Assembly (NCBI GenBank): GCA_011525665.1
Contig: WYAU01000054.1
Coordinates: 1-56,067, forward strand
Reading direction: 5' to 3'
DNA length: 56,067 bases
DNA from: Candidatus Brocadia sp.
Lineage (GTDB): Bacteria > Planctomycetota > Brocadiia > Brocadiales > Brocadiaceae
The position numbers were made by a program, and so were the translations under genes. Of this stretch, positions 4,298 to 30,274 are shown piece after piece. A model generated the notes under the pieces. The model did not search any database and was not told where the DNA came from. It saw only the letters and a list, made by a program, of their open reading frames with translations. Position 1 is the first letter of the stretch; each line of letters begins with the position of its first letter.

Positions 4298-7200
4298 TTA
4301 TTTTTGATACTTTTGCAGCACCTCCAGCTTCTTCTGCAGATCCTCCAACTGTCTTTTCATCGCATCCTTAGCCCTTTGAAATTCCTTCTCTACCCGCTTA
4401 CGCCCGGTAATTTCCTCTCGCAAAAGCATGTTTGTTCTTAAAAGTTCGGCAGAACGTTCCTCGACACGTTTCTCTAATTCATCATGAGCCTTTTGTAACA
4501 TCTCTTCCATCTGTTTTCTCTGGATGACCATGCCCAGCTGGGAGGCAACGGAAGAAATGAGTTTAATAAGCTGTTTATCCGCCTCACGCGCTTCAAACAA
4601 AAAGAATACCATCACGGCAACCACTTCTTTCCTGGCAAGAACAGGGATTGCCAGGCCGGACTTGAATCCAACTTCCGCAGCGACCTGCATCCGTATGAAG
4701 CTTGCATCATGGGTAACATCCTTCACCCACTCCGGTTGCTTCGATAACCAGACACGACCGGGAAGTCCTGCGCCCTTCGGGAAAACAAGATCGATGCTCG
4801 CCAGGGTAAATTTTTCCAGGCCATCAAGAGCGCTATACCATGCCGAACTTCGTTTGAGATGAGAACCGCTGGAATCAGGGATCCATATCTCTCCAAAAAC
4901 CCAGCCCGTGGCTTCACACAACTTGCGCAACGTAATGACAAGCGCTGCGTGAAGGTCTTCAGATTCATTAATCGCCATTGTTATCGTCTGCAGGAGACGG
5001 ATATCTTCCTGGGCATGCTTCAGTTCGGTGATGTCCACAAGGGTAATTACTGCACCATCAACCATATCGCTTTCTGTCCGGTAAGGCAGAATTCGGATTA
5101 AATACCACTTATTTTCTTTGGTTGTTACTTCTTTCTCAAAGGGGCGCAAGGTCTTCAGCACTTTTTCTATATCTTCAACGAAACCCTCATGTGCAATCTT
5201 CCCAGAAATCTGGTGAATGGGCCTTCCGACGTCCGACGCGATGAGGTTTATTGTCCTGGTTATTGCGGGAGTATAGCGCTTTATGCACAACTTTCTATCC
5301 AGGAAGATAGTCCCTATATCTGCGCTACTCAACATATTGTTTATGTCATTATTAGCCCGTGACAATTCTTCTACGTTGTTCTGAAGCCTCGAATTTACCG
5401 CAACCAGCTCTTCGTTCATCGACTGCAACTCCTCCTTGGAGGTCTCCAGCTCTTCATTGGCGCTCTGCAATTCCTCATTAACCGTTTGTATCATTTCATT
5501 GGCGGTCTTGAATTTCTCATTGGAAATCTCCAGTTCCTCAATGACGTCCCGGAGAGACTCCCTGGTGGAGTTCAACTCATCTTCAAGCTCTTTAATACGT
5601 TTGTCAGTCTCCACCGTCCGTCCAAACTCTTCTTTTTTTCCCATTGCCGGCGAAGAAGAGGACAATGGAGGTGTTAATTCCTCAAATATCACCAACATCA
5701 ACCCCAGTAGTGATTTAGTCTCTAAAAATGGCCTGACTACTAAATTTATCATTGTTGATTTGCCGTTTGCCGTTATCCGCAGTCCTTTGTGCACAACAGC
5801 CGTTTTCTGCCTGACTACTTTGTAAATCGCCGATCTCAGATCAAGGCGCAAATCCTCTCGCGCCATTTTCAGAATATTTAAACTGGGCTCTCCAACAGGC
5901 GGTTCCAGATATGCAACCGTCTGACCCTGGAAATAAACAATGTCGAATTTTTCATTAATAACCACACACGAGGGACAATAGCACTTAAGCAGCATCTTTT
6001 TCGTCACCTCGCCAATGCTCATCTCCTTTGATTTCATAAATTCTTCAACTTTTTGTAGTTTTGTGATATTATCCGTCAATTGATCGGCGCTAATTTTTGC
6101 CTCTGCACCGGGAAAAATGCCTTTGCGTTGAAAGATTTTAGACTTCTTGTCTACAACCGAAAACAGGTGGGTGAATTCCCCGACGGTTTCCGAGTTTCCG
6201 AGAATAAGAAACCCTTCCGGATTTAATATGTAATGGAAAAGCGGTATCAGTTTCCTCTGCAACACCGGCTCCAAATAAATCAGCAGATTCCTGCAACTGA
6301 CTATATCCAATTTGGAAAAGGGAGGGTCTTTGATGAGATTATGATTGGCAAAGACCACCATTTCCCGGATTCGTTTGTCGACAACATACGTGTTATCTTT
6401 TCTGAAAATAAAATATTTCAATAGCTCGTGTGGCACATCAGCAACGATACTTTCCGGATAGAGGCCAGCACGGGCAAAATTGATGGCACCGGAATCTATG
6501 TCGGTGGCAAATATCTGAATTTTGAAATGCCGTTCCACCCTCTCCATATGATCCGCAAACAACATTGCGAGAGAATAAGCCTCTTCGCCGGTAGAACAAC
6601 CGGCAACCCAGACCCGTATCGGAAATTCAGCATCCCGGTGTTCAAACAGACGCGGTATCACTTTTTCCTTAAAGGCATTACAAACCTCACTATCTCTAAA
6701 GAATTTTGTAACTCCAATCGTCAGTTCTTTGAAGAGTGCTTCCACCTCGGGCGGGTGTTCCTGGAGATACATCACATAATCCGCCAATGTCTCAACCCGA
6801 TTGACCGCCATTCGCTTTCCAATCCTGCGGCTGACGGTAGAGTACCGGTAATGAGTAAAGTTATGCCCCGTCGCTGACCGCAGGATGCCAAAAATCTTCT
6901 CCAGATCATTCGTGCTTTTCGGAGGGATGAATTCTGTTTTCTGAAAATGTCCCTGTTGGTAATATTTTACATACCTGACAAGTTCATCGGGCATCTTGTC
7001 CACAGGCAAAATATGGTCTATACAACCCGAAGCAATGGCGCTTAGCGGCATGCCACTAAACTCGGCTGATTTTATCTCCTGAACCAGCGTCATACCGCCC
7101 CCGCCCTTAATAGCCTTCAAACCCAGGGTACCATCGGTTCCGGTTCCTGAAAAGACAATACCAATAGCCTTATCTGCACGGTCTTCTGCCAGAGACCGGA

Positions 7201-7666
7201 AAAAGAAATCGATTGGGTGTCTGAGCCCATAAGGCCCTCCTGATTCTACCAGGTGAAAAATTCTGTTCGAGAGCGTCATCTCCTTGTCAGGGGGCTTAAT
7301 ATAGACGCAGTTTGGTTCCGCCAGCATCCCGGATTCAACTTGAAAGAGCTTCATCGCGGTATATTCTTTCAAAATATCAACCAATGTGCTTTTATAATCA
7401 GGGCTCAAATGCTGAACAAGGACAAAAGCCATCCCGCTATTTGGCGGCATATGCGAAAGAAATTGCTTAAACGCCTCCAGTCCACCGGCAGAAGCGCCTA
7501 TGCCAACAACAAAAAGTCTATTTTCAATCAGAGGCGTAGGCGGCATTCCGTCTGGCTGTGCACAAACGGCGAATTCATTACCCGTGCTGGTGTTCCGGGT
7601 ATATCCTTTTCGATCAGACGGCACGGCAGGCACATCTGTCGTTGAATTTTTTTTCTTTCTGGCCAC
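4298..7666 (-). CDS. CheB-CheR-PAS-GAF chemotaxis/sensor hybrid without kinase domain
   Basis: 1122 aa, GTG start. Domains in order: CheB-type methylesterase (about 50-235) with the triad Ser59 (GASAGG), His86 (QHLSPD) and Asp178 (GTGTDGT); CheR-type SAM methyltransferase (about 250-515) with VAGCSTGEEAYS and SCRNLLIYL; a PAS-like segment; a long coiled coil (about 690-790) rich in NEELQSANEELE heptads; PAS (about 795-905); GAF (about 915-1050); and a C-terminal coiled coil. The CheB part lacks a receiver. Relatives often end in a histidine kinase, but here the protein stops at the coiled coil, so output must come from the esterase/methylase or a partner. No che genes or receptors lie beside it, so the target is unknown. 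Confidence 0.9.
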   Translation of the reverse strand: MARKKKNSTTDVPAVPSDRKGYTRNTSTGNEFAVCAQPDGMPPTPLIENRLFVVGIGASAGGLEAFKQFLSHMPPNSGMAFVLVQHLSPDYKSTLVDILKEYTAMKLFQVESGMLAEPNCVYIKPPDKEMTLSNRIFHLVESGGPYGLRHPIDFFFRSLAEDRADKAIGIVFSGTGTDGTLGLKAIKGGGGMTLVQEIKSAEFSGMPLSAIASGCIDHILPVDKMPDELVRYVKYYQQGHFQKTEFIPPKSTNDLEKIFGILRSATGHNFTHYRYSTVSRRIGKRMAVNRVETLADYVMYLQEHPPEVEALFKELTIGVTKFFRDSEVCNAFKEKVIPRLFEHRDAEFPIRVWVAGCSTGEEAYSLAMLFADHMERVERHFKIQIFATDIDSGAINFARAGLYPESIVADVPHELLKYFIFRKDNTYVVDKRIREMVVFANHNLIKDPPFSKLDIVSCRNLLIYLEPVLQRKLIPLFHYILNPEGFLILGNSETVGEFTHLFSVVDKKSKIFQRKGIFPGAEAKISADQLTDNITKLQKVEEFMKSKEMSIGEVTKKMLLKCYCPSCVVINEKFDIVYFQGQTVAYLEPPVGEPSLNILKMAREDLRLDLRSAIYKVVRQKTAVVHKGLRITANGKSTMINLVVRPFLETKSLLGLMLVIFEELTPPLSSSSPAMGKKEEFGRTVETDKRIKELEDELNSTRESLRDVIEELEISNEKFKTANEMIQTVNEELQSANEELETSKEELQSMNEELVAVNSRLQNNVEELSRANNDINNMLSSADIGTIFLDRKLCIKRYTPAITRTINLIASDVGRPIHQISGKIAHEGFVEDIEKVLKTLRPFEKEVTTKENKWYLIRILPYRTESDMVDGAVITLVDITELKHAQEDIRLLQTITMAINESEDLHAALVITLRKLCEATGWVFGEIWIPDSSGSHLKRSSAWYSALDGLEKFTLASIDLVFPKGAGLPGRVWLSKQPEWVKDVTHDASFIRMQVAAEVGFKSGLAIPVLARKEVVAVMVFFLFEAREADKQLIKLISSVASQLGMVIQRKQMEEMLQKAHDELEKRVEERSAELLRTNMLLREEITGRKRVEKEFQRAKDAMKRQLEDLQKKLEVLQKYQK

Positions 7667-9468: not shown

Positions 9469-9495
9469 TTGACGCGTACATTTTCATTGTATAAT
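9469..9495 (+). promoter_or_regulatory. Sigma-70 type promoter for the DinG-like gene
   Basis: TTGACG (9469-9474) and TATAAT (9490-9495) are separated by 15 bp, slightly short, or 16 bp if TTTGAC is used. They lie about 27 nt before the ATG at 9523. The extended TTG start at 9469 would coincide with the -35 box, which argues against that start. Confidence 0.6.
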
Positions 9496-9522: not shown

Positions 9523-12144
9523 ATGAAAACCACGAAATGGTTAGCCAAAGAATTTATCATGCCTGATGCTATTTCGTCTATCCGCCAAGCCGTTGAAAAG
9601 GCGGGTGGAAATGAGGTATTTCTGGTGGGCAGGCTGAATGACGAGCACCTGGTAAGCGATGTGGACGTTTACGCCATGGGAAACAGACGTGCTGTACCTG
9701 CTATCATCAAAGAGGCAAAATACGGAGACGTTATTATCCACAATCACCCGGATGGCGTCCTGGATCCCTCCGATGCAGACCTTGAGATTGCATCATATAT
9801 GGGTTCGCTTGGCGTAGGATGCTACATTGTGGACAACAACGCAGAATATCTATACCCGGTGGTAAAGGTCAAGAAAGAGCGGGTGTGTGAGCGGCTCAAC
9901 TTCACAGAATTATCAGCACAATTTCAACCCGGAGGAAATTTTGCACGGCATTTGCCCGAGTATGAATACCGCACGCAGCAGGTCGAGATGCTAAAGTCGG
10001 TAGTTGATGCCTTTAATGAAGACACGCTTGCCGCGATTGAGGCGGGGACGGGGACGGGGAAATCACTGGCGTATCTCGTCCCGGCCGTTTTCTGGAGTAT
10101 AAAAAATCAGGAACGCGTAGTAGTTTCCACCCACACGATAAACCTCCAGGAACAATTGATCGAAAAGGACATTCCGATACTCAGGAAATGCTGTGGACTG
10201 AACTTCAAGTGCGTCCTGGTAAAGGGCAGGAATAACTACCTGTGCCTGAGGAAGGTTTATAATTTACGTTCTGATGGCGGCACGTTGATTGAGGACAAGG
10301 ATCGACAGCAACTGAACGATCTGCTAGAGTGGGCAACAAAAACGCGGGATGGAAGCAAGGCCGACCTGAATTTTGTTCCGCAGGATGATGTCTGGGAATC
10401 AATCCAGTCGGAGGCCGACCAGTGCACGCGACTGAAGTGTCAGTTTTATGACGAGTGCTTTTTTTATATTGCCCGGAGAAATGCAGCCAGCGCCGATGTA
10501 TTGGTGGTAAACCATCATCTCCTGATGGCCGACCTGATCGTGCGGAAAGAAACAAAAGGTTACGATGCCGTAGCCATTTTACCGCCCTTCAAGAAAATCA
10601 TTATTGACGAGGCACACCACCTTGAGGATGTGGCAACGGCAAATATGAGTTGCACGATTTCTAAATTACGGATAATAAAACTACTAGGGAGATTGGTCAA
10701 CCTCAAGGATGGCAGAAAAGGACTTTTGCAATACCTCAAAAACAAGCTCAAAGAAGTAATTTCGATTCACGACAAATCCATTACCATAGAAATTGCCGAC
10801 ACGATCAATACGGAAATCCTGGAGGCAAGGCAGCGTCTCTATGATACTGTTCAAGGAGTTTTTGAGGACATCTCCAGTGTAGTAAGCGAGTACATTAAGA
10901 ACAAAAACTTTCACGGAGAAGATTCAAAAGAAGGTGAGACTAAATTACGCATCACAGCAGACTTGATTTCTTCAAACCTGTGGCAAGATGTTATTGAGAC
11001 CAGACTCAGGGCATTAAGCATGGATATCCACAAATTTGTCTCTGTATTAACAGCACTGTTAGATAAGTTCGGGGAACTCTCCAAAAAGTCACAGGATATT
11101 CTTTCGCCGGTGCTGATAGATATTGTATCCTGCAAGACACGTTTAAAATTGGTGGCGAGCGATCTTGCTTCGTTTATCATAGACAACGAAAAGGTTTGCA
11201 AATGGATGGAAATAAAAAGATATGCTGGAGGATCCGTCATTCGATTTTGTACAGCCCCGCTGTCCATTTCTGATAATTTGAAGGCATGCCTGTATGACAA
11301 TTATACTACGATAATATTGACATCGGCCACACTAACAATAAGCAAAACCTTTAAATTCTTTAAAGGCAACATTGGCCTGCATCAAATTCCGGAAGACCGC
11401 TTGTCCGAATTACTCTTAGATTCTCCATTTGATTATAAAAAACAATCCATTATATGCATTCCTACGGACATTTCGGAACCTGACAAACCGGGTTTCGTTA
11501 CAACCCTTGAAGAGAATATCCTGAAGACCGTAGAAATTTCAGAGGGCCGCGCATTAATCCTGTTTACATCATATAGCCTTCTTGATAATCTCTACCGGAG
11601 GTTAGAACCGCAGATTACACGACTCGGTTATACCTGCCTGAAGCAGGGGATGGATAACCGCCACAACCTCCTTGAAACCTTTAAGGCAGATAAGACGTCG
11701 GTTCTCTTTGCTACGGACAGTTTCTGGGAGGGTATTGATGTCAAGGGGGATGCGTTGGCGTGTGTTATTCTTACCCGATTACCATTTAAGGTGCCTACAC
11801 AACCTGTTATTGAGGCACGGGCTGAGGCCATTGAAAAGGCAGGAGGCGACGCCTTTTACGATTATTCTCTCCCCATGGCTGTAATCAAATTTAAACAGGG
11901 CTTCGGAAGGCTCATACGAAGTCGCGAGGACAGGGGGGCGGTAATTATCTTCGACCGCCGTGTGGCTACAAAAAAATATGGACATATATTTCTCCGGTCG
12001 CTGCCGGATGCAAGGTGCATTATGGATAAGAGGGACGTCGTTTTTCGAGAGATGGATCTGTTTTTGGGCAAGGGTAATACTCATTCACATCAGGGAATGA
12101 AAGCACCGAACTCCATACATCAAATATCAAATAAATCCGAATAA
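9523..12144 (+). CDS. DinG-type Fe-S DNA helicase with RadC/JAMM-like N-terminal domain
   Basis: 873 aa. Residues about 15-130 carry HNHPDGVLDPSDAD, the spacing of the RadC/JAMM metalloprotease motif (H73, H75, S83, D86). From about 150 it is an XPD/DinG superfamily-2 helicase: Walker A EAGTGTGKS (about 173-181), the Cys set of a 4Fe-4S domain (NYLCLRK and DQCTRLKCQFYDEC), DEAH (about 359), FATDSFWEGID and the motif VI segment QGFGRLIRS. DinG helicases unwind R-loops and other branched DNA. A common fusion partner of DinG is a DnaQ-like exonuclease rather than a JAMM domain. Fusion to a RadC-like fold suggests a DNA-repair role. The start at 9523 was chosen from the promoter position; ATG 9559 is an alternative. 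Confidence 0.88.
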   Translation: MKTTKWLAKEFIMPDAISSIRQAVEKAGGNEVFLVGRLNDEHLVSDVDVYAMGNRRAVPAIIKEAKYGDVIIHNHPDGVLDPSDADLEIASYMGSLGVGCYIVDNNAEYLYPVVKVKKERVCERLNFTELSAQFQPGGNFARHLPEYEYRTQQVEMLKSVVDAFNEDTLAAIEAGTGTGKSLAYLVPAVFWSIKNQERVVVSTHTINLQEQLIEKDIPILRKCCGLNFKCVLVKGRNNYLCLRKVYNLRSDGGTLIEDKDRQQLNDLLEWATKTRDGSKADLNFVPQDDVWESIQSEADQCTRLKCQFYDECFFYIARRNAASADVLVVNHHLLMADLIVRKETKGYDAVAILPPFKKIIIDEAHHLEDVATANMSCTISKLRIIKLLGRLVNLKDGRKGLLQYLKNKLKEVISIHDKSITIEIADTINTEILEARQRLYDTVQGVFEDISSVVSEYIKNKNFHGEDSKEGETKLRITADLISSNLWQDVIETRLRALSMDIHKFVSVLTALLDKFGELSKKSQDILSPVLIDIVSCKTRLKLVASDLASFIIDNEKVCKWMEIKRYAGGSVIRFCTAPLSISDNLKACLYDNYTTIILTSATLTISKTFKFFKGNIGLHQIPEDRLSELLLDSPFDYKKQSIICIPTDISEPDKPGFVTTLEENILKTVEISEGRALILFTSYSLLDNLYRRLEPQITRLGYTCLKQGMDNRHNLLETFKADKTSVLFATDSFWEGIDVKGDALACVILTRLPFKVPTQPVIEARAEAIEKAGGDAFYDYSLPMAVIKFKQGFGRLIRSREDRGAVIIFDRRVATKKYGHIFLRSLPDARCIMDKRDVVFREMDLFLGKGNTHSHQGMKAPNSIHQISNKSE

Positions 12145-18261: not shown

Positions 18262-18294
18262 TCGTTACTTTTGATTAAGGTTAAGGTAGATGTT

Positions 18295-19131
18295 ATGGGA
18301 ATCGATAAGTTATCTCTTACAACTCATGAAATGGTGAAAGCTGACTACTTAAGGGAGTTTTGGAGTGTTAAAGAGGATACCCATAGATTAAAGCTTTATA
18401 AATACTTTTGTGAGATGGATTACGCCCAGGTGATGTGGAGACCTCATAAATTTAGTGACGAAACAAATATGAGAATACCCTATTCCAAGATAGATATTAA
18501 CCCAAAGCATTTTGACTGTTTTCAGTTTCTCTATGATTATGTGGAAAACATTTTTAATGGTCAACCAGATTTAGAGTATCTCAATGTCAGTAGAATCGAT
18601 TTAACGGCAGATATAGAAAATCTTCCCATGGATGTGGTGTTTTCACGTCTGCACGTTCCCGGTTTTCATCGTGATAGTTTGAGCCTTTATAAAGGCACGA
18701 TCTATATAGGTTCTAATCCAAAGATAAGAATTTATGATAAGACAAAAGAGATTAAACAAAGACAAAGAAAAGGATGGAGTATTACGGAATGGGAGAAAAG
18801 TATTGTTGAATCTGGAAAACAGATAACAAGATTTGAGATTCAGTTAAGCAATTTTAAAGGTTGTTTAAAAGATGTGGTAAATGACCCAGCGTCCTTAGTA
18901 TCACACTTTGACCGGATACGATTCTATGATTTTGAAGATAAAGAAAAGATAGGCTCTATGGTAGGCGGTTTATATTTTTTAATGACAAAGATCAATAGAA
19001 AGCTCAGGGGTAATCTTGATAAATTCAGGTCTCAGGAATTAGAGACGATGATTAAAGAAAAATATATTGCTTCAGCCAAAGAATGGTTTCAGGGAAAAGA
19101 GTCCCTTAACTTAGAAGGAATCCCATTTTAA
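18295..19131 (+). CDS. Rolling-circle-type replication initiation protein (Rep_trans / phage CRI-like)
   Basis: 278 aa. The sequence shows the signature order of the replication initiation factor/gene II-X group: MGIDKLSLTT at the start, VSRIDLTADI in the middle (about 103-112), TIYIGSNPKIRIYDKTKEIK (about 141-160), then ITRFEIQLS. This matches Rep_trans or filamentous-phage CRI proteins that nick the plus strand through a Tyr; I could not single out the nicking Tyr. ATG 18295 was chosen because AAGG lies 8 nt upstream; a TTG at 18271 is less likely. Flanked by large hairpins upstream and by xis/int downstream, it is probably the element's own replication initiator. Confidence 0.72.
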   Translation: MGIDKLSLTTHEMVKADYLREFWSVKEDTHRLKLYKYFCEMDYAQVMWRPHKFSDETNMRIPYSKIDINPKHFDCFQFLYDYVENIFNGQPDLEYLNVSRIDLTADIENLPMDVVFSRLHVPGFHRDSLSLYKGTIYIGSNPKIRIYDKTKEIKQRQRKGWSITEWEKSIVESGKQITRFEIQLSNFKGCLKDVVNDPASLVSHFDRIRFYDFEDKEKIGSMVGGLYFLMTKINRKLRGNLDKFRSQELETMIKEKYIASAKEWFQGKESLNLEGIPF

Positions 19132-19156
19132 CCAAAAAGAAAGGAGAAGAAAGGCT

Positions 19157-19411
19157 ATGAATAGGATTGAAAGAAGAAAGAAGTATAAAAAAGAAAGAAG
19201 GCGTAAAAGGCTTTTAAAACGTGAAGAAATGAGAGGATATAAAGAAATTAATACTTATAGAGTTATTGAATTGAGGATATATTATTCTGAAAATACAGGT
19301 CTCAAACCTTTAGCGGTGGCAACCTGTGAGGATTGTGAGGATTATCAATCAGGTGATTGTAAAGGTGGTAGCGTGCCTGAAGAGTGTGTAAAAGGGTCTG
19401 GATTGTTATAA
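19157..19411 (+). CDS. Small basic, Cys-containing protein
   Basis: 84 aa. The first 30 residues are almost entirely Arg/Lys/Glu. The C-terminus carries CEDCEDYQSGDC and another Cys near residue 77. It is not recognised. It lies 25 bp after Rep, with AAAGGAG upstream, and 9 bp before the Xis-like gene, so it is likely co-transcribed. A nucleic-acid-binding role is plausible from the charge. Confidence 0.5.
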   Translation: MNRIERRKKYKKERRRKRLLKREEMRGYKEINTYRVIELRIYYSENTGLKPLAVATCEDCEDYQSGDCKGGSVPEECVKGSGLL

Positions 19412-19420
19412 AGGGTAACT

Positions 19421-19744
19421 ATGAAACTGGTAACGATAAAAGAGGTATCAGAATTTCTTAAGGTGAAAGAGTCAACCCTGTATTCCTGGGCTAGCAGTGG
19501 TTTAATACCGTCATACAAGGCAAACGGTCTTATACGATTTGATATAGAAGAAATACAGGACTGGATCAAGAAATCAAGAACCCTGCCTACGATAGCACGA
19601 CGGACGATAAAGAAGGTAACAACAAGGGTTCATGATTTAAACAGTCTGGTTAAAAAGGCTATTGATGACGTTACAGGGAAACGTTATAATCCATCCAACG
19701 GGAAACCAGGCCCGGGTCAAGGTCTCGGAAAGGAGGTCGTATAA
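19421..19744 (+). CDS. Excisionase-like helix-turn-helix protein (MerR/HTH_17 type)
   Basis: 107 aa. Residues 1-50 (TIKEVSEFLKVKESTLYSWA, then GLIPSYKANGLIRFDIEEIQ) are a textbook HTH_17/excisionase domain. The C-terminal half is basic and Gly/Pro-rich. The stop at 19744 is 1 nt before the integrase ATG (19746), and the integrase ribosome binding site lies inside this gene, so they are translationally linked. It probably acts as the directionality factor for excision and perhaps binds near the TTAGCAC boxes. Confidence 0.8.
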   Translation: MKLVTIKEVSEFLKVKESTLYSWASSGLIPSYKANGLIRFDIEEIQDWIKKSRTLPTIARRTIKKVTTRVHDLNSLVKKAIDDVTGKRYNPSNGKPGPGQGLGKEVV

Positions 19745-19745
19745 C

Positions 19746-20816
19746 ATGGGACTTTACAAAAGAGGTCTGGTCTGGTGGATGCGGTTTACTTACCATGGCC
19801 AACAGGTAAGAAAATCGACAGAGACAACAGATAAGAAGCTGGCAGAAAAGATTTACCATAAGGTTGTACATCAGATAGCGGAGGGCAAATGGTTTAATAT
19901 TGACGAGGGAAACCAAAGAACCTTTGAAGAGCTTGCGGAAAAATATGAAACGCAAGAATTCAAAGACCTCAGAGGCTACCAGAAAAACAGGTGTTATTTA
20001 AACCAGCTCAGGGCATTCTTTGGTAACTATAAACTCAGTGAAATAACCCCGGCATTGATTGATGATTTTAAACAAATGAGAAAAGGGCACGGGGTAAAAT
20101 CAATAACCATTAACAAACAGCTCTCCATTTTCAGAAGGATGTTTAACCTTGCCAAAAAGCGTTGGATGTGGATAAAAGAAATCCCTCTTATCGAGATGGA
20201 ACCGAATGCGGATAATAAGCGAACAAGGCATTTAAGCTATGATGAGTTTCATAAGCTCTTGGGGTTTTGCGATGCATGGTTAAGGGATATTGTCATTGTG
20301 GCTGCATGGACAGGGCTGAGGCGTGAAAATGTTGTTAAATTGAGGAAGGCTCAGATAAATCTTTTGACACGGGAAATAGCAGTTGATGGCAAGGAAATCA
20401 AGAACGGTGAAAATCTGAGAATCCCCATTGCTAGCACTGCATATGAGGTAATAGCAAGCCACGCAATCAATGACAAGGTGAACAGCCTTTATGTTTTTTG
20501 TGACGATGAAGGTAAGTCGTACAATCCAAAAAAGGTGTATAACGTATTTAAAAAGACCTTAGCACGTGCAGGAATAGAGGATTTCAGATTTCATGATTTA
20601 AGGCATTGCTTCGCGTCATGGAACAGGCAAGCAGGGGTTGACATATATACACTTGCTGAGTTAATGGGGCATAAAGACACAAAGATGACGATGCGTTATG
20701 CTCATATTACGCCTGTACATCTCACAAAGGCTATCGGGTTGTTGGAAAAGAGCTACGGTGAATTTAGCACAAATTTAGCACGGGAAAGCATAGATGTCGC
20801 GCAACAAACCGCATAA
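19746..20816 (+). CDS. Tyrosine recombinase / phage-type integrase
   Basis: 356 aa. ATG 19746 has AAGGAGG at ideal spacing. It has a short N-terminal arm-binding-type segment (MGLYKRGLVWWMRF), a SAM-like core-binding domain (about 60-150) and the catalytic domain. The catalytic domain has the Arg in TGLRREN (about 191), HDLRHCFASW (HxxR, about 283-286), LMGHKDT and the nucleophile Tyr in MTMRYAH (about 318), so all key residues are present. The last codons overlap paired TTAGCAC boxes, and the predicted crossover core lies 52 bp after the stop. It should catalyse integration into and excision from the 29-bp palindromic target. Confidence 0.93.
   Translation: MGLYKRGLVWWMRFTYHGQQVRKSTETTDKKLAEKIYHKVVHQIAEGKWFNIDEGNQRTFEELAEKYETQEFKDLRGYQKNRCYLNQLRAFFGNYKLSEITPALIDDFKQMRKGHGVKSITINKQLSIFRRMFNLAKKRWMWIKEIPLIEMEPNADNKRTRHLSYDEFHKLLGFCDAWLRDIVIVAAWTGLRRENVVKLRKAQINLLTREIAVDGKEIKNGENLRIPIASTAYEVIASHAINDKVNSLYVFCDDEGKSYNPKKVYNVFKKTLARAGIEDFRFHDLRHCFASWNRQAGVDIYTLAELMGHKDTKMTMRYAHITPVHLTKAIGLLEKSYGEFSTNLARESIDVAQQTA
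20764..20781 (+). promoter_or_regulatory. Paired TTAGCAC boxes, right copy (inside the end of int)
   Basis: TTAGCAC at 20764-20770 and 20775-20781, 11 bp apart start to start, match the left pair at 14361-14378. They lie about 90-100 bp from the crossover core, typical of arm-type integrase sites. Confidence 0.5.
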
Positions 20817-22295: not shown

Positions 22296-23312
22296 TTAAA
22301 ATTGATCCAACAACTCTTTTTTCTTTTCGTTATAATCGTCTTCGGTAATAAGCCCTTCGATTTTTAGGTCTTTTATCACCTGCAACTGTTCCTTTATACT
22401 CATATCATTCATAGCTTCCCTGAGCATTTTGGCCTTTTTGTAATCGTAATCTTCCTCGGAGACGATCCCGTCATCAACCATTTCCCGCAGGATAGTCAAT
22501 TTATTTTTTATTCTGTTTTCACTACGAATCTCTCTTACCGGAGTTGTTGGTTTCTCTGCCTTTGTCTCACTGTCAGTCCCCATTCTTTCCTCCAGCTTCC
22601 TCAGGCGTGCGTCCAGATCAGAGGTGCCCACCTTGATCTTTTCATCAACCGTTCCTACCCTTTGAGCTACAGGCTGTTGATATATTACATCCGACAAGTC
22701 TATAACAAGCCAGTTTTCATGCCCCGGTTCTAACCGTTGTCCTGCCGATGGAACCAGTTTCCAAAAACGGCTATGGCTTATCTGCGAGGGATTCTCTTTT
22801 GTCGTTGTATATCTCTTTTTCTCTGACATGGCGTCATTATACGTTTGAAACATATGAATACGGCTGAAGGCAATGTTAAGATTACGCTCTGTAATGAACA
22901 AGATACAATAATTCTGCTGGTCGGTTAAAAGTATGCGCTCAGAATAGGAGGAAACAGTAACGACCTGTGCCGGCGTTGCAACGGAAAACGCCTGTATAAT
23001 CAGGGGTACTAATTTCCTTATCTCGTCGTCCTGAAAGACCCGTAAGGTTCCTTTCTTTTTCAAAAGCCCCTTTTCTTCAAAATAGATATACGATAACGCA
23101 TTGGTGATGACATTCCCCGGCGGTTCGAAGGGATGGTTAAACTGAACACGGTGGCGATTCCTTTTAACCTGCAACTCCTCGTGTTTTACCACAATCCTGC
23201 CGTCTGTATAAGTATCTGCATGGGCATCAAAAAACTTACAAAAAAAAATCATGCAGACAACTCCCACAAATAAAATCGTTCGCTTCACTCTTTGATTTCT
23301 CACGAAATTCAT
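22296..23312 (-). CDS. Exported protein with two C-terminal SHOCT-like repeats
   Basis: 338 aa. The N-terminus has a basic stretch, then a hydrophobic segment (about 12-28) and HADTYTDG, so it is probably a signal peptide or anchor. The middle domain (about 35-220) is not recognised. From about 270 two SHOCT-like helices follow: KLTILREMVDDGIVSEEDY and QLQVIKDLKIEGLITEDDY. SHOCT motifs usually mediate oligomerisation. Its ATG overlaps the radA stop codon by 4 nt (ATGA), so it is translationally coupled to radA. A link to DNA repair is not otherwise evident. Confidence 0.75.
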   Translation of the reverse strand: MNFVRNQRVKRTILFVGVVCMIFFCKFFDAHADTYTDGRIVVKHEELQVKRNRHRVQFNHPFEPPGNVITNALSYIYFEEKGLLKKKGTLRVFQDDEIRKLVPLIIQAFSVATPAQVVTVSSYSERILLTDQQNYCILFITERNLNIAFSRIHMFQTYNDAMSEKKRYTTTKENPSQISHSRFWKLVPSAGQRLEPGHENWLVIDLSDVIYQQPVAQRVGTVDEKIKVGTSDLDARLRKLEERMGTDSETKAEKPTTPVREIRSENRIKNKLTILREMVDDGIVSEEDYDYKKAKMLREAMNDMSIKEQLQVIKDLKIEGLITEDDYNEKKKELLDQF

Positions 23313-24667
23313 CCTATGATTTCTACTGCCTCAGAAAGATAACAGACCTCACGCAGTTCAATGCCCAACCCCTTCCCTATCCCTTTTGCGTTATCCTTTG
23401 GAATAACAGCCTTTTTAAAGCCTAATCTTTGCGCCTCTTTTAATCGGATCTCTATCTGACTCACACTGCGAACCTCTCCACCCAGCCCTATCTCCCCGAC
23501 ACATACGATATCGGAAGGAATTACCTTTTCTTTAAAGCTCGATGCGACCGTCATAGCAATACCCAGGTCCGCTGCGGGTTCGTCTACCTGAACCCCTCCT
23601 ACGATATTTACAAAGACATCCTGCCCGCCGAGTTTCAGCCCTATCCGTTTTTCAAGAATGGCAAGGATCATCGAAACCCGGTTATAGTCAACCCCGCTGA
23701 CCTTTCGTTCGGGCATACCAAAATTCGCCCGGGTTACAAGCGCCTGTATCTCAACCAATAAGGCACGTGTCCCTTCCATACTGGAAATAATGGCAGAACC
23801 TGCACTCATCCTCCGTCCCTGCGAAATAAACAACTCGGACGGGTTATCCACGGGCTGCAATCCGTTTTTTCTCATCTCGAAAATTCCAATCTCATCGGTG
23901 GAACCAAACCTGTTTTTTACAACCCGCAGGATACGATAGCACTGAAACTTCTCTCCCTCAAAATACAAAACCGTGTCCGCCATATGTTCCAATACTTTAG
24001 GACCTGCAATAATACCCTCCTTGGTTACATGCCCTACCAGGAAGATGGCAGAACCCGTGGATTTGGCAACGGAAATGAGATCATTTGCGCATTGACGCAC
24101 CTGAGCAACCGTACCGGGCGCAGACTCTATCTGTGGCTTAGAGATCATTTGAATAGAATCAATCACAACAAGGGTTGGACGGGTGTTGTGGATATTTTCC
24201 AGGATGAAATCCAGATTCGTTTCTGCAACGACCAGTAAATTGTCCGACAGAATGGACAATCTCTCGGCGCGAAGTTTGGTCTGAGCCACAGACTCCTCCC
24301 CCGTTACATAAAGAGTTGTGTATCCCTTCTTGCTGATATTTTGACATACCTGCAAAAGGAGCGTGGACTTGCCAATTCCCGGTGTCCCGCCAATCAATAC
24401 TGCTGAACCGGAAATCAGCCCTCCGCCAAGGATCCTGTCAAATTCTTTCATCCCCGTTTCAATACTGGGGCATTCGAGCAGTTTTACCTGTGTTATCGGC
24501 TGCGGCAATTCACGATTGATGGCAAATGACCTGTAACCCGATGCGGCAGGGGCGCTGAGTTCTTCTATTGTCGAGTCCCATTCACCGCAACCACCACAGC
24601 GACCGACCCATTTCAGGCTCTTCCAGCCGCAACGCTGACAAACGTAAACCCCACCTGGTTTTGCCAT
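23309..24667 (-). CDS. radA: DNA repair protein RadA/Sms
   Basis: 452 aa. The N-terminal zinc finger CQRCGWKSLKWVGRCGGC (about 10-27), the RecA-like Walker A GGTPGIGKSTLL (about 93-104), the RadA-specific KNRFGSTDEIG and a C-terminal Lon-like domain (VDYNRVSMILAIL and GEIGLGGEVR) are all present. RadA is a hexameric branch-migration helicase acting in recombination and transformation. Its presence in the same window as dprA is compatible with DNA-uptake recombination. It lies downstream of clpC as in Bacillus but is separated from it by a terminator. Confidence 0.95.
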   Translation of the reverse strand: MAKPGGVYVCQRCGWKSLKWVGRCGGCGEWDSTIEELSAPAASGYRSFAINRELPQPITQVKLLECPSIETGMKEFDRILGGGLISGSAVLIGGTPGIGKSTLLLQVCQNISKKGYTTLYVTGEESVAQTKLRAERLSILSDNLLVVAETNLDFILENIHNTRPTLVVIDSIQMISKPQIESAPGTVAQVRQCANDLISVAKSTGSAIFLVGHVTKEGIIAGPKVLEHMADTVLYFEGEKFQCYRILRVVKNRFGSTDEIGIFEMRKNGLQPVDNPSELFISQGRRMSAGSAIISSMEGTRALLVEIQALVTRANFGMPERKVSGVDYNRVSMILAILEKRIGLKLGGQDVFVNIVGGVQVDEPAADLGIAMTVASSFKEKVIPSDIVCVGEIGLGGEVRSVSQIEIRLKEAQRLGFKKAVIPKDNAKGIGKGLGIELREVCYLSEAVEIIG

Positions 24668-24813
24668 AGTTTCTTAATAAAAATATTTTACATCTTCTTC
24701 GGCAAAAACAATTTGGCGCAGGCCATTATGTAACGTAAACTTCAGTTCTCAGGACAGAAACATAAAAGCCGCACCACCTGTTTCGGCTGTTCGGGTTAAG
24801 AAAATCCACCAGG

Positions 24814-24846
24814 AAATAAAAAAGGGAAGAGTTCTTACTCTCCCCT
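24814..24846 (-). terminator. Rho-independent terminator after clpC
   Basis: On the minus strand a GGGGAGAGT...ACTCTTCCC stem with a short loop is followed by a run of six T. It lies about 30 bp after the clpC stop. Confidence 0.8.
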
Positions 24847-24874
24847 CTGGTTCGTTTTCTTATCGCATCCCATG

Positions 24875-27355
24875 CTACAGGCTGCTTTCAGCATTTACCA
24901 GCGCAGGCTCCGGGGTTTCAACCACCTCGTCAAAGACCAGCTTACCATCCTGGACCCTTGCCTTCACATGTTTCTTTCCCTCAAATTTGCCCTGCAGAAT
25001 CTCTTCTGAAAGGGGATCCTCCAAATAACTCTCTATTGCCCTGCGAAGCGGGCGTGCACCAAAGTTTTGATTATATCCCTTTTCTATTAAAAAATCCAAT
25101 ACCTCGTCACTCAGCGTGATGCTGATGTTGTAGTTATCCAGTCTCTTTTTAACACCGGACAATTCTATTTCAATGATCTTTTTCAAATCTTCTTTGTTCA
25201 ATGGTTTGAAGACGATGATATTATCCACCCTGTTTAAAAATTCAGGGCGGAAGTGTTTTTCAACCTCTTTCTTTAGTTGCTCCTTCATCATTTCGTACGT
25301 ATGCGCATCGGTCACTTTTTTAAAGCCCAGGGATGCCTGATTCCTGATAACATCAGCACCGATGTTTGAAGTCATAATAATGACTACATTACGGAAATCC
25401 ACGTGACGTCCAAAGCTATCCGTTAATTTCCCATCCTCCATAATCTGCAGTAACATGTTAAACACATCCGGATGGGCCTTCTCTATTTCATCAAGCAGAA
25501 CGACAGCATACGGGCGGCGGCGTATCTTTTCTGTAAGCTGCCCGCCCTCTTCATAACCTACATAACCGGGAGGGGCACCAATCAATCGTGAAATATTGTG
25601 TTTTTCCATATACTCAGACATGTCAATCTGAATAAGGGCTTCTTCTTCCCCGAACAGGAACTTTGCCAGCGACCTTGCAAGGTGCGTCTTACCCACGCCG
25701 GACGGTCCCACAAAGATAAAAGACGCCACCGGCCGGTTTGGATTCTTCAATCCTGCACGGGAACGGCGTATCGCTTTTGCAACCGCTTTTGTAGCCTCTT
25801 CCTGGCTTACCACCATCTTATGAAGTTCTTCTTCCATGCGCAGCAATCTCTTTGCCTCTGCGGATTCGATGCGAGTCATGGGAATTCCCGTCATTTTGGA
25901 GACAACCTCGGCAACTATTTCACTGTTCACAACACCTTCAACCTCAGCGCGGGTCTCCCGCCATTCCTTCTCAATGGTCTCCTTTTTCTTCTTCAGCTTG
26001 TCCGCCTTGTCTCGTAACCGGGCAGCCCTTTCAAAATCCTGAATCGCAACAGACTCGTCCTTATCCTTTTCCAGCTTATTGATCTCTTCCTCTATATGTC
26101 GTAAATCCGGCGGCTGCGTGGTTGCCTTGAGCCGCACCCTTGCGCATGCCTCATCAAGCACATCAATCGCCTTATCGGGGAGGTACCTTCCCGTAATATA
26201 ACGAATGGACAACTCGGTTGCCGCTTCCAATGCATCATCCGTAATTTGGACCTTGTGATGCGCTTCATAACGGTCACGAAGTCCTTTTAATATCTCAATT
26301 GTCTCCGACTTTGAGGGAGGCTCGACAATAATCGTCTGAAATCTTCTTTCAAGGGCTCCGTCTTTTTCAATGTATTTTCTGTATTCATCCAAAGTGGTGG
26401 CGCCAACGCACTGAATTTCCCCCCGCGACAGTGCAGGTTTCAACACATTGGACGCGTCAATAGCGCCCTCTGCGCCACCTGCCCCCACCAGGGTATGTAA
26501 TTCATCAATAAAAAGGATAATATTCTTCGCCCTTTTCACTTCGGACATCACGGCCTTGATACGCTCTTCAAACTGGCCCCTGTACTTAGTGCCGGCCACC
26601 ATCATTGCAAGATCAAGGGCAACAATCCGGCGATCCCGTAATAGTTCAGGAATATTCCCCTGTACCACGGCCTGAGCAAGACCCTCAACGATAGCCGTCT
26701 TCCCTACCCCAGCCTCGCCCAATAACACGGGATTGTTCTTGGTTCTGCGACACAAGACCTGAATTACACGCTCAATTACGTCTTGCCGTCCGATAACCGG
26801 GTCAAGTTCGTGTTCACGCGCCTGCTGTGTAAGGTCACGGCCAAAAGAATCCAGCGCCGGAGTCTTAGACTTCCCCTTCTTTTCCTCTTTTTCCTGACTT
26901 GCACCGCCCTGAACTGCTTCAGAACCCAAAAGCCCGATAACTTCCTCACGCACATCTTCGAGTTTTACCCCCAGGTTTAACAAAACCTGTGCAGCGACGC
27001 CTTCCTGCTCCCTGAGCAGTCCCAATAACAAATGCTCCGTCCCGATATAATTATGCCCCAACGCCCGCGCTTCCTCCATTGCATATTCCAGCACCTTCTT
27101 TACCCGCGGGGTGAAAGGCAACTGCCCCACCGAAACAAGGTCGGACCCGCTCTGGACAATTTTTTCAATCTCCAGACGGATTTTTTTTAGTTCGATATCC
27201 AGGTTTTGCAGGACATTGGCAGCAACCCCGCTTCCTTCTTTTACCAGCCCCAACAAGATATGCTCCGTACCTATATATTCATGATTAAATCGCCTGGCTT
27301 CTTCTCGTGCAAGCGCCATAACCTTTCGAGCACGGTCAGTAAATCGATCAAACAT
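24875..27355 (-). CDS. clpC: AAA+ unfoldase ClpC
   Basis: 826 aa, full length. It has two N-terminal Clp repeats (about 1-145), AAA-1 with Walker A GEAGVGKTAIVEG (about 213), a UVR/middle domain coiled coil (DKADKLKKKKETIEKEW, about 450-480), AAA-2 with GPSGVGKTHLARS (about 548) and a C-terminal D2-small domain. ClpC delivers misfolded or arginine-phosphorylated proteins to ClpP, and the middle domain is what marks it as ClpC rather than ClpB or ClpA. It follows mcsB by only 7 bp. clpP is not in the window. Confidence 0.96.
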   Translation of the reverse strand: MFDRFTDRARKVMALAREEARRFNHEYIGTEHILLGLVKEGSGVAANVLQNLDIELKKIRLEIEKIVQSGSDLVSVGQLPFTPRVKKVLEYAMEEARALGHNYIGTEHLLLGLLREQEGVAAQVLLNLGVKLEDVREEVIGLLGSEAVQGGASQEKEEKKGKSKTPALDSFGRDLTQQAREHELDPVIGRQDVIERVIQVLCRRTKNNPVLLGEAGVGKTAIVEGLAQAVVQGNIPELLRDRRIVALDLAMMVAGTKYRGQFEERIKAVMSEVKRAKNIILFIDELHTLVGAGGAEGAIDASNVLKPALSRGEIQCVGATTLDEYRKYIEKDGALERRFQTIIVEPPSKSETIEILKGLRDRYEAHHKVQITDDALEAATELSIRYITGRYLPDKAIDVLDEACARVRLKATTQPPDLRHIEEEINKLEKDKDESVAIQDFERAARLRDKADKLKKKKETIEKEWRETRAEVEGVVNSEIVAEVVSKMTGIPMTRIESAEAKRLLRMEEELHKMVVSQEEATKAVAKAIRRSRAGLKNPNRPVASFIFVGPSGVGKTHLARSLAKFLFGEEEALIQIDMSEYMEKHNISRLIGAPPGYVGYEEGGQLTEKIRRRPYAVVLLDEIEKAHPDVFNMLLQIMEDGKLTDSFGRHVDFRNVVIIMTSNIGADVIRNQASLGFKKVTDAHTYEMMKEQLKKEVEKHFRPEFLNRVDNIIVFKPLNKEDLKKIIEIELSGVKKRLDNYNISITLSDEVLDFLIEKGYNQNFGARPLRRAIESYLEDPLSEEILQGKFEGKKHVKARVQDGKLVFDEVVETPEPALVNAESSL

Positions 27356-27362
27356 AATACAC

Positions 27363-28451
27363 CTATCCTTTCAAACTTTCTGCTTTTTCCAGGCGTTTTC
27401 TTACATACGCCGCACGAATAATATTCCTCTGAAGAGAAGTAAGTTCGCGCCCTTCTAACTTTTGTAAGTGTCCCGGTAACGTAAAAATGAAAAGCTCATT
27501 TAGGGTTTTCATTTCAATGTCATTAATTATTCCCAAATTCACTCCCATACGGACCTGAGACAGGAGATGCATAATTTCCTCGGAAGAAATCATACGCGCC
27601 ACCTTCAGCATACCGTAGGAACGCCACACGCGATCTTCCAATTGTTCCTTGTTCTCTGAAATCAAGGCCTTCCGCGCCATCCGTTCATAGCTGGTAATCC
27701 GGGGAATCACGCTTTCTATAATTTCAATAATCTCTTTCTCCGACTTGCCGAGGGTAAATTGATTTGAGATCTGATACAAGTCTCCGGAGACCTGAGTTCC
27801 CTCCCCATAGAGGCCCCTGACCACCAAACCCAGTTTCATTACCGCATTAAAAACCTTTTCAATATGGTGTGTCATCCCCAGCGCCGGAAGATGCAACATA
27901 ACCGATGCCCTCATTCCCGTACCGACATTGGTGGGGCAGGCAGTCAAATACCCAAAACGTGATGAATATGCATAATTGAGTTTTTTCTCCAGCTTATTGT
28001 CGACCTCATCAATCGTCTTCCATGCCTCTCTAAGCTCAAACCCGGAGCGAATTACCTGTATCCTCAAATGGTCTTCCTCATTGACCATCAGACTGATCGT
28101 CTCGGACCTCCCGAAGGCTACTCCTCTTTCACCTTCTCCTCCCGCATGCTCCCGGCTGATGAGATGCCGTTCCACAAGAAAAAGCCTGTCTACGGGATTA
28201 ATTTCCGCAAGATTTATGTAGCGAAGGTCTGATGTGATCTCTGCCTCTCTGATTTTGTCTCTGACGACCTCCTCGAGTTCCTTTTTTTGCTTTACATTCG
28301 CCCTTGAAAGAAAGGGAAACCTCGCCACATTCCTGGCCAGACGAATCCTGCTGCTGATAACAATATCCGATTCAGGCCCTGTCCCCCTCAGCCATTCTCC
28401 GGTATTATCAGCCAGATCACTGATCTTCACTGGTGTCGCCTGAAAGCTCAT
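27363..28451 (-). CDS. mcsB: Protein arginine kinase McsB
   Basis: 362 aa. It is an ATP:guanido phosphotransferase-type enzyme: SSRIRLARNVARFPF (about 33-47), the catalytic-loop motif TACPTNVGTGMRASVML (about 166-182) and the RGLYGEG segment. McsB phosphorylates arginines in clients as a degradation tag for ClpCP and needs McsA as activator. The start overlaps mcsA by 35 bp; a GTG 21 nt downstream would shorten the overlap. The operon order mcsA-mcsB-clpC is the Bacillus order but without ctsR. Confidence 0.95.
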   Translation of the reverse strand: MSFQATPVKISDLADNTGEWLRGTGPESDIVISSRIRLARNVARFPFLSRANVKQKKELEEVVRDKIREAEITSDLRYINLAEINPVDRLFLVERHLISREHAGGEGERGVAFGRSETISLMVNEEDHLRIQVIRSGFELREAWKTIDEVDNKLEKKLNYAYSSRFGYLTACPTNVGTGMRASVMLHLPALGMTHHIEKVFNAVMKLGLVVRGLYGEGTQVSGDLYQISNQFTLGKSEKEIIEIIESVIPRITSYERMARKALISENKEQLEDRVWRSYGMLKVARMISSEEIMHLLSQVRMGVNLGIINDIEMKTLNELFIFTLPGHLQKLEGRELTSLQRNIIRAAYVRKRLEKAESLKG

Positions 28452-28954: not shown

Positions 28955-30244
28955 TTACCTTTTCTGCCATTTTAACACATCTATGACCTTTCCTAAAGAA
29001 CTTTTTTCAGACAGTATCTCTTCCCGGATCCTATTTTCTTTTTCCAGACAATCCATGCCATAATTGACCCAGGCATGTGCATTAGACGCCGGCATTACCA
29101 TTAATCCGTCGTCATCCCCGATGATCCAGTCTCCAGGATTGATCTGAATTCCGGAGATAGTGATCGGCACATTAATCTCCCCAAAACCTTTTGGCTCCCC
29201 GGCAGTTGGCATCACCATCTTTGTGAAAACGGGAAAGTTTAACTTTCTCACCTCGGCAAGATCACGCATTGCGCCATTGATAACCACGCCGCTTATTTTT
29301 CTTTGCACTGCGCTATGGGTTGCCAATTCCCCCCAGACAGCAGGGCCAACTCCCCCCGCATCTATGACAATCACATCCCCTTCTTTTGCAATATCTATCG
29401 CTTCAACCGGCCTTGCCCAATCACCCGGATACGTCCGGACGGTAACTGCATTTCCAACCAACTTACTATCCGGACGGATGGGGTATAATCCTGTGATACC
29501 TTCGGCGCGATGGCTCCCATCGGAGATATTTGCCGTGGAAAGCCGATGTAACGCATCACGAACACCTTCACCCCCTACCCTTTTGAACAGGGTCGTGGGA
29601 ACCCCCCGGTTTTCTCTTATTGCGTTTTTAATCGTCTCTGTCGCACCTTTTACATCCTTTGCTTTACTAATATACCCGCCAACGACAACAACGCTTGCAC
29701 CTCCCTTTATCGCGTCCACTATATTTTCAGAATTTATACCACCTGCCACGGCAACAGGTATCTTTACTTTACTGCAAACAAGCCGCAACGTATCAAACGG
29801 CGACCTGCCGTACATTTGATCATCTATGGTGGTATGAACGGCAATGTAGTCCGCACCCCAACCCTCAATGTCGGCAGCGCGCTCCACGATTTTACCGTTA
29901 TCTATACAGTCCACGCAAACTTTGATACCATAATTTTTCCCCGCCTGGATACATTCCCTGATCGTCGAATCCTGGGCATTCCCCATTACGACAGCGATAT
30001 TGGCGCCCGCCTTGGCTGCCATTTCCATCTCTGCGCGACCCGCATCCATTGTCTTCATATCCGCAATCAATGTTCTATCCGGAAACAATTTTCTCACGTG
30101 GCGCACCGCATTCATTCCTTCGCTTTTAATCAGGGGGGTGCCTATCTCCAGCCAGTCTGCGCCGCCTTCAATGGCCGCCTCAGCAACCTTTACAGCCCTA
30201 TGAAGGTCAACAAAGTCGAGGGCTACCTGTAATACTACCGCCAT
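28955..30244 (-). CDS. Hexulose-6-phosphate synthase / RraA-family fusion
   Basis: 429 aa. Residues 1-205 are an HPS/KGPDC TIM barrel of the OMP-decarboxylase suprafamily: VALDFVDL, ADWLEIGTPLIKSEG, ADMKTMDAG (the DxKxxD site), VAVAGGINSENI and VVVGGYI. Residues about 225-429 are RraA-like (AEGITGLYPIRPDS, DAGGVGPAVWGELAT, GVVINGAMRDL). HPS condenses formaldehyde with ribulose 5-phosphate, and run backwards it makes pentose phosphate. The RraA-like half is usually a regulator-like or aldolase-type domain. ATG 30244 was chosen because GAGGGTAGAG lies upstream; an in-frame TTG (30259) overlaps it. No phosphohexuloisomerase is adjacent. Confidence 0.9.
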   Translation of the reverse strand: MAVVLQVALDFVDLHRAVKVAEAAIEGGADWLEIGTPLIKSEGMNAVRHVRKLFPDRTLIADMKTMDAGRAEMEMAAKAGANIAVVMGNAQDSTIRECIQAGKNYGIKVCVDCIDNGKIVERAADIEGWGADYIAVHTTIDDQMYGRSPFDTLRLVCSKVKIPVAVAGGINSENIVDAIKGGASVVVVGGYISKAKDVKGATETIKNAIRENRGVPTTLFKRVGGEGVRDALHRLSTANISDGSHRAEGITGLYPIRPDSKLVGNAVTVRTYPGDWARPVEAIDIAKEGDVIVIDAGGVGPAVWGELATHSAVQRKISGVVINGAMRDLAEVRKLNFPVFTKMVMPTAGEPKGFGEINVPITISGIQINPGDWIIGDDDGLMVMPASNAHAWVNYGMDCLEKENRIREEILSEKSSLGKVIDVLKWQKR

Positions 30245-30274
30245 ACTCTCTACCCTCAAATTGTAAAAGAACTT

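Follow-up and report, generated by a model that had tools for sequence, protein, structure and literature searches.

Our analysis identifies the product of the gene at positions 9523 to 12144 (forward strand) of Candidatus Brocadia sp. contig WYAU01000054.1 (assembly GCA_011525665.1) as, with near certainty, a RadC-like DinG: an iron-sulfur (Fe-S) helicase of DinG/YoaA type that carries a JAMM metal-hydrolase domain at its N-terminus. We refer to the whole 56,067-nucleotide stretch analyzed as the window. We tentatively favor the idea that this protein is a helicase-peptidase that would clear DNA-protein crosslinks, and we weigh this idea below against a nucleic-acid-processing, a docking and a ubiquitin-directed role. 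An earlier note on this DNA, made from its letters alone, had proposed a DinG helicase fused to a RadC/JAMM-like domain, and our family, structure and conservation searches bear this out.

The architecture itself is already in print, and we thus make no claim of novelty for it. A "RadC-like DinG" subgroup is defined in section 3.8 of a review, which describes it as without any research (Cheng 2025, PMC11981726), and RadC-DinG/RAD3 fusions are cited in a 2017 paper (PMC5512222). Both of the simplest ideas about function, a nuclease and a metalloprotease-like fold, are likewise published: the function of RadC is disputed in print (PMC11981726, PMC5512222), the published proposals being a nuclease, repeated in 2012 (PMC3482391), or a metalloprotease by fold. 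The review's account of the subgroup names E, H, H and D residues and notes a missing HolC. The window gene shares with that account an N-terminal RadC-like domain with these four residues, a complete Fe-S helicase, a YoaA-like body and the absence of HolC from the genome. We found no difference from it, and the gene is a further member, from a planctomycete. Its features are as follows, with alignment rows described below.

9523 to 12144, forward strand: whole gene, RadC-like DinG (JAMM-DinG), 873 amino acids; an open frame whose start is backed by relatives L002 and L003.
9547 to 9882, forward strand: RadC/JAMM (JAB) domain, residues ~9-120, from PF04002, the predicted model, Foldseek and VIA-align.
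9613 to 9615, forward strand: E31, the JAMM glutamate and, by analogy with JAMM enzymes, putative general base; kept in all 98 distinct rows.
9739 to 9747, forward strand: H73-N74-H75, putative metal ligands by analogy with JAMM enzymes; kept in all 98 distinct rows, HxH having been used in row choice.
9769 to 9780, forward strand: S83, putative oxyanion-side serine (97 of 98 distinct rows), and D86, putative third metal ligand (98 of 98), by JAMM analogy with roles taken from PMC300881.
9898 to 12069, forward strand: XPD/DinG-type superfamily 2 (SF2) helicase, residues ~126-849; NCBIfam YoaA 590.1 bits (cut-off 680), structure match to 6fws with Z 37.7.
10045 to 10062, forward strand: Walker A, GTGTGK (K180, 40 of 40 rows).
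10243 to 10458, forward strand: Fe-S cluster cysteine stretch with C241, C301, C306 and C312 (38, 33, 40 and 40 of 40 rows).
10606 to 10617, forward strand: DEAH box, residues 362-365 (D362 and E363 40 of 40 rows, A364 38 of 40, H365 39 of 40).
11518 to 12009, forward strand: Helicase_C_2 (PF13307, 172.9 bits) with QGFGRLIR (R796 and R799, each 40 of 40 rows).

Searched alone, the first 128 residues match RadC (PF04002) above its cut-off (residues 38-93, 25.2 bits against 22.1, E 1.6e-5). With the full-length protein as query, this family reaches 20.4 bits, below that cut-off, so routine annotation may miss the domain. Residues 1-146 match RadC and Prok-JAB alone in Pfam up to E 10, and we found no DEDD exonuclease, which sets aside membership in the ExoDinG group. 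The NCBIfam RadC models do not reach their cut-offs with the N-terminus alone (NF000642, 22.1 against 180; TIGR00608, 19.4 against 133.85); judged by these matches the domain is RadC-like, yet the whole protein is not a RadC. A profile built from 15 JAMM-DinG domains and compared with solved structures found RadC 2qlc (E 1.9e-6), AF2198 (0.12) and AfJAMM (0.14). With RadC proteins such as E. coli YicR and C. tepidum 2qlc, the window protein shares the JAMM core and its HNHP...PS..D stretch. These RadC proteins lack a helicase and carry a helix-hairpin-helix part.

The putative metal site reads E31-Xn-H73-N-H75-X7-S83-x2-D86, which is the JAMM motif with HNH replacing H[ST]H and is otherwise exact. 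Asparagine at this place is named in distant JAMM relatives and can do the same bracing job as serine or threonine; the same paper describes the peptidase chemistry of the JAMM set, in which the glutamate and serine are catalytic rather than metal ligands (PMC300881). The earlier note had read the N-terminal HNHP...S..D stretch as a RadC/JAMM metal site and had looked for a JAMM glutamate upstream of His73; E31 is that glutamate. An alignment of 15 domains has 15 invariant columns, including E31, H73, H75, P76, S83 and D86. In a larger set of 102 rows (the window gene, 21 loci of its phylum and 80 from titled genomes), E31, H73, H75, S83 and D86 are each present in all 102. With seven more loci included and duplicates dropped, 98 distinct rows are left, and among these five residues only S83 varied: L136 is the sole row that we saw with threonine in place of the JAMM serine.

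Rows were chosen by a pattern of the HNHP stretch (80 rows) or by HxH, which favors both histidines; E31, S83 and D86 lie outside these patterns, so their conservation is more than chance. A search with the whole protein, made without motif selection, found a match in 164 of 199 genomes. Among the matches listed, at least 29 genomes have one that starts before residue 30, and all 29 (22 plus 7) keep the motif, one with threonine for S83. We considered a degenerate or inactive JAMM domain and saw none; rows with a broken HxH would escape the pattern scan, and the at least 29 genomes found by whole protein all keep the motif. By these alignments, the JAMM active-site set is whole across the relatives.

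Structure prediction agrees with this assignment. We made AlphaFold2 models of the full chain with 40 rows (mean predicted local distance difference test score, pLDDT, 90.0; predicted template modeling score, pTM, 0.85) and of the domain alone with 32 rows (mean pLDDT 91.6, pTM 0.79). A JAMM fold, which the earlier note had placed within residues 15-130, is predicted there with high confidence. Foldseek matched the domain model best to C. tepidum RadC 2qlc (E 1.5e-5) and P. furiosus JAMM1 5lda (E 3.6e-5), followed by Rpn11 and CSN5 entries. In VIA-align the domain model superposes on Rpn11 4owp_B (Z 10.4, 2.5 A, 102 residues), AF2198 1oi0_A (Z 9.4, 2.3 A, 89 residues) and RadC 2qlc_D (Z 9.3, 2.9 A, 101 residues).

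The helicase part aligns with the DinG crystal structure 6fws (Z 37.7, root-mean-square deviation 6.5 A, 630 residues) and with S. aureus DinG 8zef (Z 36.3, 4.2 A, 647 residues). Its best family match is NCBIfam YoaA (NF053712), at the score given above; the NCBIfam DinG models score lower and are likewise below their cut-offs. The complete Fe-S XPD/DinG helicase that the earlier note described is there in full: Walker A, DEAH, a QxxGRxIR-type motif VI and all four Fe-S cysteines, with K180, D362, E363, R796 and R799 invariant in 40 rows. The body is shared with E. coli YoaA and DinG, which differ in having no N-terminal enzyme domain, and YoaA works with HolC. Within the helicase part, residues 139-831 also fit PADLOC typeIV_DinG models strongly (best E 6e-135), as would be expected from general likeness to DinG. 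We rejected the CasDinG of type IV CRISPR systems, with CRISPR arrays covered only by a tandem-repeat search, because csf4 (TIGR03117) scores 112.8 bits against a cut-off of 400 and the Fe-S cysteines are present; CasDinG is described as lacking them (PMC11981726).

The two parts of the protein are held at a near-constant distance. With pairing limited to distances of 81-129, the start of Walker A follows the HxH by 101 residues in 93 of 109 rows (86 of 97 distinct domain strings), the others being 102 in eight, 103 in three, 107 in two, and 106 and 108 in one each; the remaining row, L086, lacks Walker A in its sequence piece. This near-constancy suggests a fixed arrangement of domain and motor. 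A scan for the domain in a one-per-species collection (84,980 species) found 126 stretches. Of these, 120 are relatives, and we kept the 80 best. Titles among these best 80 of 120 bear on the phylogenetic spread raised in the earlier note: they name Planctomycetota and Spirochaetota (many of them Treponema), and a few other groups, namely Calditrichaeota, KSB1 and one bin each of Geobacter and Halanaerobiaceae. These relatives are mostly metagenome bins, and their titles need care because the domain of L042, from a bin titled Proteobacteria, is identical to that of planctomycete L018; the former title is probably provisional or wrong.

We built a tree from the helicase part only (63 rows, quick method, no bootstrap). 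Its 44 JAMM rows require two label changes, of which well-supported branches force one, and the out-of-place row, L084, sits at the unresolved base. Exonuclease-labeled rows form their own clade (support 99) and short rows another (95). The exonuclease label comes from a DLETTG motif at the same N-terminal place in seven of the eight rows looked at, from other lineages of the same phylum; the eighth (L133) was labeled by eye. The tree points to a likely single origin of the JAMM-helicase fusion, short of proof because several rows are odd in composition and two E. coli rows are long. ExoDinG proteins such as B. subtilis and S. aureus DinG share the architecture of a helicase with an N-terminal enzyme domain and differ in carrying a DEDD exonuclease where the window gene has JAMM. 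As a separate observation, L132, L133 and L134 are DinG-like helicases with frames of 1270, 1371 and 1020 residues and long N-terminal parts, some cut by the fetched stretch; all come from family f47 of the phylum, and L133 groups with the exonuclease type.

What might such a protein do? The earlier note had suggested a different nuclease, peptidase or targeting role. In the function that we tentatively favor, the DinG-type motor would load onto single-stranded DNA at a stalled fork and, moving in the 5' to 3' direction reported for DinG proteins elsewhere, run into a protein crosslinked to the DNA. It would pull on that protein and partly unfold it, and the loosened chain would be offered to the zinc site of the JAMM domain fused to the motor; cleavage of the polypeptide by that domain would let the fork proceed. 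The protein would then be a one-chain bacterial counterpart of the FANCJ helicase and SPRTN protease pair. Two things lead us to this reading: its analogy to FANCJ and SPRTN, and a report that dinG mutants of E. coli are sensitive to crosslinks. When FANCJ, translocating, runs into a crosslinked protein, it unfolds that protein and so lets SPRTN cut (PMC12279946). E. coli dinG mutants are reported as hypersensitive to covalent M.EcoRII-DNA crosslinks induced by aza-C, and not to tight non-covalent M.EcoRII complexes or quinolones (PMC4437897, citing its authors' earlier paper). We also count for the helicase-peptidase the conserved JAMM set of the 98 distinct rows, the near-constant spacing, the absence of HolC from all 29 fusion genomes, the absence of a phage or plasmid match to the N-terminal 140 residues, and a DALI comparison of a relative in which the nearest folds include metalloproteases and no nucleases (PMC11981726).

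From the human system, we infer that the JAMM domain would take the role of SPRTN. The likeness is by analogy alone, an XPD-type motor that unfolds and a metalloprotease that is proposed to cut; in humans these are two proteins, and there is no evidence of common descent for the protease parts. SPRTN is, to our knowledge, not a JAMM enzyme.

Several points weigh against a peptidase that clears crosslinks. By sequence, the domain is closest to RadC rather than to the peptidase JAMMs, and its fold scores are alike for RadC and the peptidases. In the literature, we found no peptidase activity for any RadC-type domain. The 2017 paper states that RadC domains lack a ubiquitin-tail groove and sit where other fusions have nucleases, and considers nucleic-acid processing likelier (PMC5512222). 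The sequence match to FANCJ is weak and short (E 5e-4, residues 144-192), far outscored by archaeal XPD entries, so FANCJ is no more than an analogy. The E. coli phenotype belongs to a DinG that carries no JAMM domain, and the authors of that study suggest either crosslink recognition or rescue of broken forks (PMC4437897). That plain DinG has a special part in surviving crosslinks is already in print; we found no crosslink reading of RadC-like DinG itself, a weak negative that covers mostly top-ranked matches and no subscription papers.

Almost level with the peptidase stands a second reading: the RadC-type JAMM domain as a nuclease or another nucleic-acid-processing hydrolase, which would trim a strand or end exposed by the helicase in the manner of the DEDD exonuclease of ExoDinG and the presumed endonuclease domain of EndoDinG. 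Besides the RadC nuclease proposal in print (PMC3482391), this reading has in its favor the position of the domain: nuclease domains occupy the same N-terminal place in other DinG proteins, including the separate DLETTG clade of the same phylum, and B. subtilis DinG is a demonstrated 3'-5' exonuclease (PMC12525004). It is held back by the active-site set, which is the peptidase one, serine included, and by the literature, in which we found no experimentally demonstrated nuclease of the JAMM fold. The missing ubiquitin groove, for its part, speaks against a deubiquitinase and not against a peptidase with another substrate. Net charge is no guide to DNA binding here: the JAMM core averages -7 over 95 residues, and six ExoDinG exonuclease domains are equally acidic (-7 to -17 over 170 residues); the RadC cores of the source genome and of E. 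coli carry -1 and +1.

A metal-bound, non-hydrolytic docking or regulatory module, for example one that would bring the helicase to the replisome in genomes without HolC, is improbable. HolC was absent from all 29 fusion genomes, G000 among them, in a search whose control was positive in two of 14 genomes (E. coli and C. vibrioides), and its absence is also noted in the review (PMC11981726); against this stand the catalytic residues E31 and S83, which are conserved more than docking should need. A peptidase of the Rpn11, PfJAMM1 or BRCC36 kind, which would act on a ubiquitin-like protein or C-terminal tag and strip a modifier from fork proteins, is very improbable. Rpn11, PfJAMM1 with SAMP2 and BRCC36 are among the best structural matches, but the sequence is closest to RadC, and a tail groove is described as missing from RadC-type domains (PMC5512222).

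Returning to the helicase-peptidase, its full form is a self-contained crosslink-repair machine, in which an XPD-type motor would unfold the stuck protein and a JAMM zinc peptidase cut it, all in one chain; in this form we consider the idea doubtful. If true, RadC-like DinG would give bacteria a dedicated crosslink protease that brings its own unfoldase, and would be a pointer to the function of the RadC family. The JAMM residues and their near-constant distance to the helicase across several phyla would tie RadC chemistry to a moving helicase. They also make the RadC question testable in one protein with two separable active sites and two substrate choices, crosslinked protein or nucleic acid.

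The source genome is a draft of 111 contigs (99.94 complete), and the whole protein matches one place in it. The PF13307 match is the sole one there, and we found no other DinG-type helicase; the genome also holds one separate RadC frame of 237 residues. Across 29 fusion-bearing genomes, a second helicase of DinG type above the cut-off is missing from 18 and present in ten; in one more (G133), two partial matches look like a single gene split by contig ends. A separate strong RadC (E < 1e-35) occurs in just 14 of the 29, which indicates that the fusion is independent of RadC.

By Pfam, the nearest neighbors of the gene encode a class-V aminotransferase (upstream, divergent), an NAD-dependent epimerase (downstream) and an O-methyltransferase. 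The aminotransferase is kept in six and the epimerase-like gene in seven of eight loci of the window's family, window included; treponeme loci have different neighbors. Among the window and 87 related loci, three of the latter without the main frame, we found no operon partner conserved across phyla. An upstream RelA/SpoT-like protein with tetratricopeptide repeats (named by eye from two members) occurs in 15 of these loci, and a directly downstream acyltransferase (named by eye) in 12.

We rejected a defense or mobile-element reading: the N-terminal 140 residues have no match at E 1e-5 among 72,556 records of plasmids and 50,697 of phages, the nearest neighbors by Pfam are those just named, and PADLOC matches among neighbors in the window are weak (SspA/DndA at 28 bits on the aminotransferase, mad2 at 47 bits on the methyltransferase and LmuB at 33 bits on the protein at 4298-7666). 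This last protein, on the reverse strand, is long and by eye a fusion of CheB, CheR, PAS and GAF parts.

For the start of the gene, ATG at 9523 (stop ending at 12144) fits best, because in L002 and L003, the two closest relatives, the stop-free frame opens one residue ahead of the residue-1 equivalent; an alternative TTG at 9469 would add 18 residues. Directly upstream, at 9469-9495, we saw by eye TTGACG, 15 bases and TATAAT. The promoter scan lists no site upstream of the gene on its strand, and a 15-base spacing falls outside the range of that scan.

Elsewhere in the window, positions 18271-20816 hold a replication-initiator-like gene (by eye; nothing in Pfam at 1e-5) and, after it, a gene of the phage integrase family (PF00589, 101.8 bits); this pair, with small frames from ~14.7 kb onward, may be an integrated element. 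On the reverse strand, 23309-28451 encodes in a row a RadA/Sms-like protein (by eye; Pfam ATPase/KaiC), a ClpC-like protein (Clp_N twice, plus a UVR motif) and an ATP:guanido phosphotransferase that by eye resembles McsB; such a pair, McsB with ClpC, may merit attention in a planctomycete. Also on the reverse strand, 28955-30259 joins in a single frame a part of the orotidine monophosphate (OMP)-decarboxylase/hexulose-phosphate-synthase type (PF00215) and then an RraA-like part (PF03737).
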